Shown here: positions 9,888-15,873 of the stretch, in pieces
Position numbering within the stretch: position 1 is the first letter of the stretch
Layout: each line of letters opens with the position of its first letter
Assembly (NCBI GenBank): GCA_016783885.1
Contig: JADHVR010000007.1
Span: forward strand, 1 to 64,000
Source of the DNA: Bacteroidales bacterium
Lineage (GTDB): Bacteria; Bacteroidota; Bacteroidia; Bacteroidales; JAADJA01
Reading direction: 5' to 3'
Length of the DNA stretch: 64,000 nt
Position numbers and translations under genes: made by a program
The notes under the pieces: model-generated
Told to the model about the DNA's origin: nothing
Database searches by the model: none
Seen by the model: only the letters and a program-made list of their open reading frames with translations

Positions 9888-12632
9888 ATGAGCGAATTAG
9901 AAGAATTTGAACAGGAAAATCTATCTGAAGAGGAGGGACCGGAAGAATTATCAGGCGACCTGCACAAAACCATCCACCTGTCGGGGATGTACGAGAACTG
10001 GTTCCTGGATTATGCTTCGTATGTGATACTTGAAAGAGCTGTTCCCGACATTAAAGATGGTTTAAAGCCTGTCCAGAGAAGGATATTGCATGCTATGAAA
10101 AGCCTGGATGATGGCAGGTACAATAAAGTTGCAAACATCATCGGGCATACCATGCAGTATCATCCGCATGGTGATGCTTCTATCGGCGATGCTCTTGTTC
10201 AGTTGGGTCAGAAAGATATTTTAATTGATACACAGGGTAACTGGGGAAATGTTTTAACAGGTGATAGTGCTGCAGCTCCACGGTATATCGAAGCCAGGCT
10301 TTCCAAATTTGCAGGAGATGTAGTTTTTAATCCTAAAACAACTGCATGGAAGGCTTCTTACGACGGACGAAATAAAGAACCTGTTGTTTTACCGGTGAAG
10401 TTTCCCCTGCTTTTAGCTCAGGGCGTTGAAGGTATTGCCGTTGGACTTGCCTCGAAAATCCTCCCACATAATTTTAATGAATTAATCGATGCTTCAATAA
10501 ATATTTTACGGGAGAAGGATTTTGAAATTTATCCTGATTTTCCAACAGGCGGTTTTGCAGACGTTTCGAAATATAACAATGGATTAAGAGGCGGTCGTGT
10601 TAGGGTAAGGGCTAAGATAAGCCGGCTTGATAAAAAGATACTTGTTATAACGGAAGTTCCTTTTGGCACTACTACTACCAGTTTGATGGAGTCTATAGTT
10701 ACAGCCAATGAAAAAGGTAAGATAAAAATTAAGAAGATTGATGATAATACTGCTGAAAATGTTGAAATACTGATCCATCTTGCCCCTAATATTTCGCCTG
10801 ACCAAACAATAGATGCTTTATATGCTTTTACTAATTGTGAGGTCTCCATTTCACCAAATTCCTGTGTAATTGATGCAGGCAAGCCCGGTTTTATTGGAGT
10901 AAAAGAAATTCTGAAAGCTTCAACTGAAAATACGGTTACATTGCTGAAAAAGGAGTTGGAGATCAGAAAGGCAGAACTGTTAGAACAATGGCATTTTTCT
11001 TCACTCGAAAAAATATTTATCGAAGAACGTATTTACCGTGATATCGAGGAATGTGAAACCTGGGAATCGGTGATTGAAACTATTGACAAGGGATTAATGC
11101 CTTTCAGGAAAAAATTCCACAGGAACATCACAGAGGAAGATATTATCAAACTTACCGAGATCAAGATTAAACGCATTTCCAAATATAATTCCTTTAAGGC
11201 AGATGATCTGATAAATGGTATTGAACTGGAAATAGACGAGGTGAATAACCACCTGGAGCACCTTATTGATTATGTTGTGAATTATTTCAGGCAGATAAAG
11301 AAAAAGTACGGAAAAGGCAGGGAAAGAAAAACCGAACTCAGGAATTTTGATACAATCGAGGCAACCCGTGTGGCTGCTGCATCGCAAAAACTTTATATAA
11401 ATCGCGATGAAGGATTTGCCGGCACTTCTCTTAAGAAATTCGAATATGTTTGCGATTGTTCCGACATTGACGACATTATTGTTTTCAGGGCTGACGGTAC
11501 TTTTATTGTTACAAAAGTTTCTGCAAAAACATTTGTAGGGCATAATATTATTCACATCGACATATTTAAAAGGAACGACGACCGTACGATTTATAATATG
11601 ATTTTCAGAGATGGAAGAAGAGGAGCCTCTCGTGTGAAAAGATTTGCCATTACAGGTGCCACGCGCGACAAAGAATATAATATTACAAAGGGAGCGGAAG
11701 GTTCAAAAATTCTTTATTTTACGGCAAATCCGAACGGGGAAGCTGAAGTTGTAAAAATTTTTCTCAAACCAAAACCCAAATTACGCAAAACCTCTTTTGA
11801 ATTTGATTTCAGTGAATTGGCAATAAAAGGAAAAGGTTCGCAGGGAAACATCCTGACCAAACATGGAGTAAAGAGTATAGTGAAACGTGAAGAAGGTATT
11901 TCCACTCTCGGGGCAAGGGATATCTGGTACGACGATACGGTAAAACGATTGAATACTGACGAAAGAGGAAATTATCTCGGCGCTTTTAAATCGAATGAGA
12001 GGATTTTAACCATTCAGCAATCAGGATATTATAAGCTGATGACTTATGACCTGTCGAACCATTTCGAAGAAGACATGATCCTTATTGAAAAATTTAACCC
12101 GAAAAAGATAATTTCAGTTATTTATTATGAAGCGGCAGTTGAAAAATTTTACCTCAAGCGATTCCAAATAGAGACGAACAACAACATCAATAAAAAAAAT
12201 GATTTTATAGGCGAACATCCCGAAAATTATCTTGTTGGTATTAGTGAGAACCTGCTTCCCCAACTGAAAATAATATTTGATGCAAAAGCTAATAATAAGG
12301 AAATACCTGATAAAGTTATCAATGTTGAGGAATTTATAGGCGTAAAAAGTCCAAAGGCAAAAGGCAAAAGAATAACAACAAATGCTATTAAAAAAATAGA
12401 ATTTATCGAACCGCTGTCTTATGAAGAACCGGAAGCTGCCGGCTCAGAGGATGTTCAGGTAAGTGAAGAAAAAAATCTTGAAATTACAAGCCCGGAAATT
12501 GCGGAAAAGGTTTCTGAAACCGAACAAAAAGAGACTAAAGCAAAAAAATCGGGGAAAACTAAAGCGGCTAAAGATAAGCAGACAGGCAAAGGGGATGAAG
12601 ATACTGTACAACAGATGGAGTTGGATTTTTAA
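9888..12632 (+). CDS. parC: DNA topoisomerase IV subunit A (type IIA topoisomerase)
   Basis: 914 residues. It cuts and rejoins DNA as the A subunit of topoisomerase IV, decatenating chromosomes. The breakage-reunion domain opens with YASYVILERAVPDIKDGLKP, then HPHGDASIGDAL, and the catalytic Tyr in AAPRYIEARLS. A coiled-coil and tower region (about residues 330-480) precedes a degenerate C-terminal beta-pinwheel. The final ~70 residues are Lys/Glu-rich low complexity ending in VQQMELDF. At the position of the quinolone-contacting Ser of GyrA/ParC this protein has Ala (HGDAS), which I believe is usual for this Bacteroidota ParC clade. The ParE gene is not adjacent. An AAAGGACGAAG stretch just upstream could serve as a ribosome site. 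Confidence 0.93.
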   Translation: MSELEEFEQENLSEEEGPEELSGDLHKTIHLSGMYENWFLDYASYVILERAVPDIKDGLKPVQRRILHAMKSLDDGRYNKVANIIGHTMQYHPHGDASIGDALVQLGQKDILIDTQGNWGNVLTGDSAAAPRYIEARLSKFAGDVVFNPKTTAWKASYDGRNKEPVVLPVKFPLLLAQGVEGIAVGLASKILPHNFNELIDASINILREKDFEIYPDFPTGGFADVSKYNNGLRGGRVRVRAKISRLDKKILVITEVPFGTTTTSLMESIVTANEKGKIKIKKIDDNTAENVEILIHLAPNISPDQTIDALYAFTNCEVSISPNSCVIDAGKPGFIGVKEILKASTENTVTLLKKELEIRKAELLEQWHFSSLEKIFIEERIYRDIEECETWESVIETIDKGLMPFRKKFHRNITEEDIIKLTEIKIKRISKYNSFKADDLINGIELEIDEVNNHLEHLIDYVVNYFRQIKKKYGKGRERKTELRNFDTIEATRVAAASQKLYINRDEGFAGTSLKKFEYVCDCSDIDDIIVFRADGTFIVTKVSAKTFVGHNIIHIDIFKRNDDRTIYNMIFRDGRRGASRVKRFAITGATRDKEYNITKGAEGSKILYFTANPNGEAEVVKIFLKPKPKLRKTSFEFDFSELAIKGKGSQGNILTKHGVKSIVKREEGISTLGARDIWYDDTVKRLNTDERGNYLGAFKSNERILTIQQSGYYKLMTYDLSNHFEEDMILIEKFNPKKIISVIYYEAAVEKFYLKRFQIETNNNINKKNDFIGEHPENYLVGISENLLPQLKIIFDAKANNKEIPDKVINVEEFIGVKSPKAKGKRITTNAIKKIEFIEPLSYEEPEAAGSEDVQVSEEKNLEITSPEIAEKVSETEQKETKAKKSGKTKAAKDKQTGKGDEDTVQQMELDF

Positions 12633-12692
12633 ACTATTTCTACTTAGCACCTAAAAAATTTCTTATAAATAGAATTATTTTGAATTTAGAAA

Positions 12693-13412
12693 ATGACCCT
12701 CTACAAAAACAAATACCGTATTGAACCGGATCGGTGTCAATTTTGGGATTATTCATCGCCAGGATCGTATTTTATTACCGTTTGTGTACAAAACAAGGAA
12801 CATCTCTTAGGGAAAATCAAAAACGGGCAAATGATTTTATCAGACAAGGGTGAAATTGTTGCAGAATTTTTTTTACAATTACCATCCTGGCACAAACGTA
12901 TTATTTTGGATGAATGGATTGTTATGCCCAACCATTTCCATTGTCTGATTATATTGGGTGATTTCGATTTTGATAATGGCGGGGGTGTTGTTGATGTTTT
13001 TGTAGAGAAAATTCATGAATTTTCTCTACAAAAACATCAACAACGCCAACCCCAACAATCCATCACCCATGATACCCAATCCAGAATCCAGAATCCGATA
13101 ACTATGGGATTTCGAGGCGGGACGCAAAAACAAAAAATTTTAAACCATTATCGAAAAATTGACAATCCCACAATAACCTAAATTAAACAGTACCGGAAAT
13201 TACGTAGAAAGATGTTGATACCCAAAATTATAGGGAAATTCCAAATGCAAACATCCAAACACATAAACCTGTTGAACGACACACCCGGAAATAAAATCTG
13301 GCAAACTGGTTATCACGACCACATTATTAGAAACAACGATGAATACCAATGCATAAAATATTACATTAGGAATAATCCGAAGAATTGGGAAGAGGATACA
13401 TTTTACTCTTGA
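12693..13412 (+). pseudogene. REP-associated tyrosine transposase (RAYT, Y1/HUH family) interrupted by an in-frame stop
   Basis: The frame starts at ATG 12693 and reads NKYRIEPDRCQFWDYSSPG, then VMPNHFHCLIIL, which carries the HUH metal-binding His-x-His (residues 81 and 83). It hits TAA at 13179-13181 after 162 codons. The same frame continues as IKQYRKLRRKMLIPKIIGKF ... WQTGYHDHIIRNNDEYQ ... IRNNPKNW to TGA at 13412. This supplies the C-terminal half normally found in this transposase family, so a single nonsense change splits one ~240-codon gene. The stop lies just before the likely catalytic-Tyr segment. RAYTs nick and mobilise REP-type palindromes without terminal inverted repeats of their own. 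A perfect 58-bp palindrome sits inside the gene (12987-13044). Confidence 0.88.
12987..13044. repeat. 58-bp perfect palindrome inside the transposase gene
   Basis: Each 29-base arm (12987-13015 and 13016-13044) is the exact reverse complement of the other, with no loop. Allowing one G-T pair extends the arms to 32 bases. The outer part contains TTTTTGTAGAGA facing TCTCTACAAAAA, and the centre AAAATTCATGAATTTT encodes Lys-Ile-His-Glu-Phe. The palindrome stays in frame with the transposase. It looks like a REP-type unit captured by, or generated within, its own transposase gene. Confidence 0.9.
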
Positions 13413-13415
13413 TTC

Positions 13416-14258
13416 ATGAAAAAATTTTTATCTTACATATTACTACTCTTTATAGCAGTATCTTTTCTTGGTTTATCCTCTTGCTATCCCGAATGGAAGA
13501 TAGCGAAATCGTATATCGATTCGAAACCCGATCTGTCTGTTATGGTACTGCCGACCGATTATATCTTTAAAAATAATTTAAAGATTGATGAGGCAGGGGA
13601 TACAACTGAAATGACCGTGCGGGAACTGGATTCCGCACTAATTGCGGGCAGCTTATTCCTGAAAGATATTTCCGATTCGATTTTTTTAGAGACCTTTATA
13701 AACAGTATGATTGTAGAATTTGAAAAGTTAGGGTTCAAGGTTTATACCGAAAGCTCTTTAGACAGCTTTCTTTTTATCCGGTCAACGGCTTATATCTTAA
13801 ATATTGCTCAGTTAGAGGTTGAGGAACATTACTATGAATATGAAGATTCGGAGAATTTCGATGATTACGTGTATTATAAAACAATTGATTTGAATGCTTT
13901 AAGTTTCAATAACTGGTTCGAATTAACTAAGTTAAATCCTAAAGAAGAAGGAAGAAAAGTTTTTTATGCTACTGAAACGATAGCAGATCGTATTAACGGC
14001 TATTTTACAGAAAATATATTTACTGGTGAAGTAAAGTATAAGTATTACATAAGCGAGATAGATACTGATATTATTTACCGCTATTGTGAGATATTAGGCA
14101 GGCGTTATGCGGGTTATACCTACGATTATATTTTGAATGAATACATTGCTAAAAATTTTCCGGCAAATAAAAAAAGGCGGTATTACATGCGCTATAACCG
14201 TCAGAATAACTCACTGGATCCGGCTTCGAGGAACAGGTTTATTATTTTGGAGGATTGA
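13416..14258 (+). CDS. Hypothetical lipoprotein
   Basis: 280 residues. The signal peptide ends in a lipobox LSSC (Cys 23), so it should be lipid-anchored, probably in the outer membrane. The mature part (DLSVMVLPTDYIFKNNLKI, GSLFLKDISDSIFLETFINS, LFIRSTAYILNIAQLEVEEHYYEYED) has no motif I recognise. An acidic Tyr-rich segment lies near residues 130-155, and the C-terminus is basic and Arg-rich (NKKRRYYMRYNRQN). The phrase about a set of stored and recomputed values (FLETFINSMIVEFEKLGFKVYTE) loosely recalls GNA1162-like or CsgG-like lipoproteins, but not strongly enough to name. It begins 3 bases after the transposase remnant stops. Confidence 0.75.
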   Translation: MKKFLSYILLLFIAVSFLGLSSCYPEWKIAKSYIDSKPDLSVMVLPTDYIFKNNLKIDEAGDTTEMTVRELDSALIAGSLFLKDISDSIFLETFINSMIVEFEKLGFKVYTESSLDSFLFIRSTAYILNIAQLEVEEHYYEYEDSENFDDYVYYKTIDLNALSFNNWFELTKLNPKEEGRKVFYATETIADRINGYFTENIFTGEVKYKYYISEIDTDIIYRYCEILGRRYAGYTYDYILNEYIAKNFPANKKRRYYMRYNRQNNSLDPASRNRFIILED

Positions 14259-15845: not shown

Positions 15846-15873
15846 AGCAGTGCGATTAATTAATCGCACTGCT
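15846..15873 (-). terminator. Palindromic terminator-like hairpin after the 15883 lipoprotein gene
   Basis: A perfect 14-bp inverted repeat (AGCAGTGCGATTAA and its complement) begins 9 bases beyond the minus-strand stop at 15883. On the minus strand it is followed by an A/T-rich run rather than a clean U-tract. The likely role is a transcription terminator or an mRNA-stabilising stem. Confidence 0.6.

Follow-up and report, generated by a model that had tools for sequence, protein, structure and literature searches.

What does a long, perfect palindrome mean within the coding sequence of a transposase, and how did it come to lie there in frame? REP-associated tyrosine transposases (RAYTs, or TnpA_REP) are usually viewed as domesticated transposases, and the REPs they mobilise as dispersed over other parts of the genome. 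In the 64,000-nt stretch of Bacteroidales DNA analysed here (the window), positions 12987–13044, within a plus-strand RAYT gene, form a perfect, loop-free palindrome of 58 bp (29-nt arms), correctly described and placed by the initial annotation. No other zero-loop palindrome in the window is as long (the halves of the runner-up measure 14 nt); this one continues imperfectly to 12977–13054 (39-nt arms, 90% complementary) and begins in codon phase 0 of the open reading frame at 12693–13181, where it encodes amino acids 99–118 (translation VVDVFVEKIHEFSLQKHQQ). Its core (13002–13029; GTAGAGAAAATTCATGAATTTTCTCTAC) is a 28-bp double-foot REP, GTAGAGA-AAATTCATGAATTT-TCTCTAC, read in frame as VEKIHEFSL: a perfect hairpin with GTAG at one end and CTAC at the other, matching the 5′ GTRG and 3′ CYAC that characterize such REPs. 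Symmetry additional to the REP is provided by the outer 15 bp on each side, which lie in a left extension outside the foot (12977–13001; 15 bp perfect, then imperfect) and a right one (13030–13054); palindrome, REP and extensions are listed without a strand.

Repeats of other kinds occur nearby. A 13-mer at the start of the RAYT gene (CTCTACAAAAACA; 12699–12711) recurs at 13024–13036, where it spans the right foot of the palindrome and its flank; the repetition may be due to chance or may be a trace of strand exchange. Another perfect palindrome, 28 bp long (15846–15873; AGCAGTGCGATTAATTAATCGCACTGCT), lies between two minus-strand genes, is single-copy in the genome at up to three mismatches and is perhaps a terminator or an operator.

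The subclass 2.4-like RAYT gene (12693–13412, plus strand) is interrupted by an in-frame stop. Its translation and a comparison with near-invariant NH.H columns place the HuH motif codons N-H-F-H at 12930–12941 (plus strand; residues 80–83 of the open reading frame), and the frame goes on to include WQ and YIRNNP motifs. A TAA at codon 163 (13179–13181, plus strand), where the closest homologues have an aspartate, lies downstream of the palindrome but ahead of the W and Tyr motifs, and the product as written therefore lacks the catalytic tyrosine; unless assembly introduced the TAA in error, the gene is probably a pseudogene. The two gene halves split by the stop both match NCBIfam NF047646 (REP_Tyr_transpos), at 30.7 and 33.9 bits against a cut-off of 80, a value that two intact homologues scored on the same model (60.9 and 63.0 bits) also fail to reach, and Pfam Y1_Tnp weakly matches the C-terminal half. 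In a structural model of the intact homologue L038 (mean pLDDT 77), the best fold match is the E. coli RAYT–REP complex (4er8), followed by the ISDra2 and IS608 transposases; together with the in-frame HuH and Tyr motifs, this bears out the original identification of the gene as a RAYT, which had overlooked the stop codon. The segment of the model equivalent to the palindrome is a low-confidence loop (93–118) between a core strand and the next helix, a predicted arrangement that fits a tolerated insertion.

Internal palindromes, defined as lying between the HuH block and the C-terminal end and having arms of 10 nt or more, were surveyed in 94 distinct RAYT homologues with both conserved ends, assembled from a scan of the genome collection and a protein search of 99 relatives. 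They are present in 60 of the 94 genes, compared with 1 of 1880 shuffles of the same regions; among the 83 homologues with an unbroken frame, 52 have one and 31 do not. The GTRG foot, where it can be placed in intact genes, is in codon phase 0 (26 genes) or phase 1 (7 genes), and in none of them in the phase that reads TAG. Homology with the relatives starts about 2–10 nt upstream of the ATG and stops at the last codons, so that no left or right element end common to the relatives was found.

The internal core matches a flanking REP (at least 80%) in 26 of the 31 loci that have both, versus 3.0 matches on average and at most 9 in 2000 permutations of the loci; the permutation overstates independence, the loci being related by descent, yet the difference is still large. 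Because internal and flanking cores match far beyond the permutation, the internal palindrome is, on sequence grounds, the REP type belonging to its gene. For the window gene itself this assignment comes from relatives, since the genome holds no second copy and the gene no flanking REP: the closest homologous RAYTs have the same core within and next to them, and many relatives have internal and external REPs that share the GTAGAGA/TCTCTAC ends. By the same comparison, the Lys-Ile-His-Glu-Phe encoded at the centre of the palindrome loses the status of conserved transposase motif that it had been given. KIHEF occurs in no more than 4 of the 94 homologues, precisely the ones with a REP core that encodes it, and most of the others have VET.....SL at this position; it is the translation of one REP core and not a family motif.

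The assembly of the window genome (G000; 4.15 Mb in 155 contigs, 89.65% complete) contains no second copy of the 58-mer or of its core. The search for copies that the initial annotation proposed hence returned nothing for the single-copy 58-mer, and for its GTAGAGA ends only one other palindrome, differing in its centre and located within the one further RAYT of the genome (contig C67). A high copy number, as looked for in a double-foot REP, is not seen: there is one copy of this type in 4.15 Mb. Around the gene, neither a REP-like palindrome (within about 800 bp on either side), nor a palindrome with 10-nt arms in the upstream segment 12630–12692, nor a terminator-like site in 12500–13500 was found, whereas REPs do lie near the gene in relatives L038, L043 and L145. 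Of the two observations that the first reading had set against itself, the absence of other copies in the genome is borne out for this sequence, and homologues devoid of symmetry are clearly not what the survey found.

Beyond this genome, GTAGAGA...TCTCTAC pairs occur in 50 of the 99 relatives, many of which far exceed a reversed-pattern control, and REPs of this 28-bp architecture but with different centres are common in the order. The core AAAATTCAYGAATTTT itself is present in and around the closest RAYT homologues (six copies in G091, eight in G072 around two tandem RAYTs and one weaker copy in G098), as well as in G032 and G020 and, at three mismatches, in G088 and G063, all members of the order; up to two mismatches, it was not detected among 394 further genomes sampled from the class. 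A search of plasmid proteins yielded two distant RAYTs only.

Several of these related loci have features of their own. The tandem RAYT genes L043 and L097 (G072:C89) are set amid many copies of the same REP, some of them arranged as 42-nt tandem repeats. L139 and L179 (G098:C246) and L096 (G091:C150) are decayed RAYTs; their remains include a same-core REP fused directly to the C-terminal tail of a RAYT, and a RAYT from which an internal stretch between similar KQY motifs has been deleted. In L038 (G091:C25, minus strand), the internal REP and a REP upstream of the gene share an extra half-arm (ATGAATTTTATTTAC), as if one REP had been copied to the other.

The best explanation of the locus as a whole, to which we assign a probability of roughly 85%, is that the palindrome represents the RAYT's own REP type, residing in frame in the flexible loop that leads from the HuH motif to the Tyr helix, as is the habit of subclass 2.4. 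The transposase would nick and copy single-stranded REP hairpins, and REPs landing in the HuH–Tyr loop would persist there, given the disorder of the loop and the lack of stops in two of the three REP reading frames. As to function, the best-supported reading is likewise that of a cognate REP which its own transposase tolerates in a disordered loop. Rickettsia palindromic elements offer a parallel, being palindromic repeats found in frame at tolerant sites of protein genes; they differ in that they occur in unrelated genes and are not linked to a dedicated transposase gene.

Such an arrangement has been on record since 2018, when Quentin et al. (PMC6006769) described REPs lying in frame between HuH and Tyr motifs as a hallmark of TnpA_REP subclass 2.4, in a study that also describes double-foot REPs. 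Subclass 2.4 is there defined by the motifs NH[IFV]H, WQ and YIxNNP (Table 1 of PMC6006769), which the window gene reproduces as NHFH, WQ and YIRNNP, and it shares with the subclass the variable HuH–Tyr insertion, here occupied in phase 0 by a double-foot REP that leaves the frame undisrupted. It departs from subclass 2.4 in lacking a flanking REP, whereas the large majority of the published genes, although not all, have REPs within 1000 nt (PMC6006769), and also in the 15-bp symmetry beyond each foot, the premature stop and the existence of an empty site in a sister genome. With the GTAG-tagged REPs and REPtrons of Di Nocera et al. (2013; PMC3733652), which include REPs inside ORFs and within longer palindromes, the locus has in common a hairpin beside or within coding regions, association with a RAYT and, for some members, inclusion in a longer palindrome; it differs from them by having a foot at both ends and a REP type with one genome copy. 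The E. coli TnpA_REP with its REP (4er8) and the S. maltophilia REPtron (PMC8266576) resemble it in fold, as judged from the homologue model, in the GTAG foot and in the CT found at the empty site described below, but they belong to a different subclass, and a bulged stem is a feature of the E. coli REP. In the RAYT/REP literature compared, we found no published case of a subclass 2.4 enzyme acting on a double-foot REP, long and perfect or otherwise.

The history of the gene can be followed in a sister genome, G013. A block of exactly 780 bp (12629–13408, plus strand, with equivalent placements up to 12631–13410) is missing from G013, which aligns to the window without gaps on both sides (95.9% identity over 2749 bp and 93.6% over 859 bp) and has the empty site GGATTTCTGATTCATG, with no clear target duplication. 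The block contains the RAYT with its internal REP and is devoid of flanking REPs. On its left is a DNA topoisomerase IV subunit A-like gene (9888–12632, plus strand), which we take from its sequence to be parC and whose stop codon is TAA in the window and TGA in G013; on its right is a predicted lipoprotein gene (13416–14258, plus strand) that is present in 16 of the 17 genomes of the genus. The RAYT frame terminates at the TGA of the old junction. In eleven other, more distant genomes of the genus, examined with longer flanks, a different stretch of about 1 kb separates the same two genes, and no RAYT lies between them. Because the block is absent from so close a genome, the parC/lipoprotein junction probably received the RAYT recently, with the internal REP as its only one; with the direction judged from one close genome and eleven more distant ones, a recent gain in the window lineage is the simplest reading and a clean loss in G013 a possible one. 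The equivalent placements of the insertion bracket a CT dinucleotide at the empty site (GGATTTCTGATTC), and CT is the published cleavage dinucleotide of the E. coli and S. maltophilia TnpA_REP (PMC8266576), a coincidence that is no more than suggestive.

The REP accounts for the central 28 bp of the palindrome, and its outer arms call for an explanation of their own. Among 89 distinct double-foot REPs of the fetched loci, symmetry beyond the foot amounts to 0–2 bp in 75 and at least 4 bp in 14, compared with about 0.35 expected by chance for the latter class (89 × 4^-4), and the longest extension is that of the window copy, with 15 perfect bp. Extended copies are found both inside and outside RAYT genes and, in L117, part of the extension is common to an internal and an external REP, which suggests, from the sequences, that some extensions travel with the REP. 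Most likely, the outer 15 bp per side would be a secondary lengthening, in which a template switch during replication at the hairpin copied one flank onto the other; alternatively, they may have been inherited from a longer REP variant. The arms could instead be older than the REP, which would then have inserted at the tip of a pre-existing 30-bp palindrome. Such a palindrome does remain once the 28-mer is removed, and REPs inserted within longer palindromes are described in Anabaena variabilis and other species (Di Nocera et al., PMC3733652); however, the flanks of the closest homologues lack a palindrome of this kind, and the shared partial extension of L117 suggests that an extension can be part of the copied unit, which leaves this order of events a doubtful proposal. 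All three origins are possible, whether template switching, insertion into a pre-existing palindrome or a longer inherited REP unit.

Compatible with a tolerated cognate REP, and adding a function to it, is the idea that the in-gene substrate accompanies the transposase gene, so that a RAYT entering a new genome can found a REP population there. The 780-bp insert brought one REP inside its RAYT and none beside it, both GTAGAGA palindromes of the window genome sit in its two RAYTs, and in the four genomes of the same genus with a single GTAGAGA palindrome (G003, G007, G009 and G015) that copy is within a RAYT. On the other hand, the internal palindrome is missing from 31 of the 83 intact homologues, REPs outside RAYTs are numerous in several genomes, and no spread from the internal copy is seen in the window genome, so that the suggestion of the initial annotation that such a gene is the source from which REPs spread finds no support here, there being no other copy of this REP in the assembly. 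A role of this sort is attractive, but at present we consider it doubtful. Somewhat more speculative still is a fuller version, in which the internal REP would make the RAYT self-contained: a 780-bp block without terminal REPs would have moved to the parC/lipoprotein junction, and an in-gene substrate could keep enzyme and REP linked through transfer and re-seed a REP population.

Self-regulation, also raised at the outset, would have the in-gene hairpin, as mRNA or DNA, lower expression of the transposase or attract the enzyme to its own gene. Folding of the mRNA does predict a very stable hairpin (−50.3 kcal/mol for the palindrome region as single-stranded RNA, versus −16.5 ± 2.9 for shuffles; z = −11.8), the corresponding value for the 58-mer as DNA being −27.1. 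This stability needs no genic explanation, however, because equally perfect palindromes with the same core occur outside genes; moreover, the internal copy is missing from many homologues and the window gene is interrupted by a premature stop, which makes a regulatory role improbable. Even less likely is that the extended symmetry or the TAA was created by metagenome assembly: the source genome is indeed a 155-contig assembly, but the palindrome lies deep inside an 85.5-kb contig, its flanks align without gaps to the sister genome, and extended REPs of the same class are present in other assemblies. Finally, chance or protein-level conservation of KIHEF can be dismissed as the origin of the symmetry, as no half-length above 12 was reached in 50 first-order Markov simulations of the window, against the 29 observed, and KIHEF is confined to the four homologues that share the REP core.

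In summary, as in-frame REPs of RAYT genes were already known, what is gained here is detail and quantification, and this copy is notable mainly for its length, for a sister genome that suggests recent arrival and for the gene's probable inactivation by a stop codon. A REP inside the coding sequence ties enzyme and substrate together, and the empty site in the sister genome provides an example of such a gene apparently arriving with its internal REP only, which allows one to ask whether internal REPs are tolerated insertions or copies that travel with the gene.
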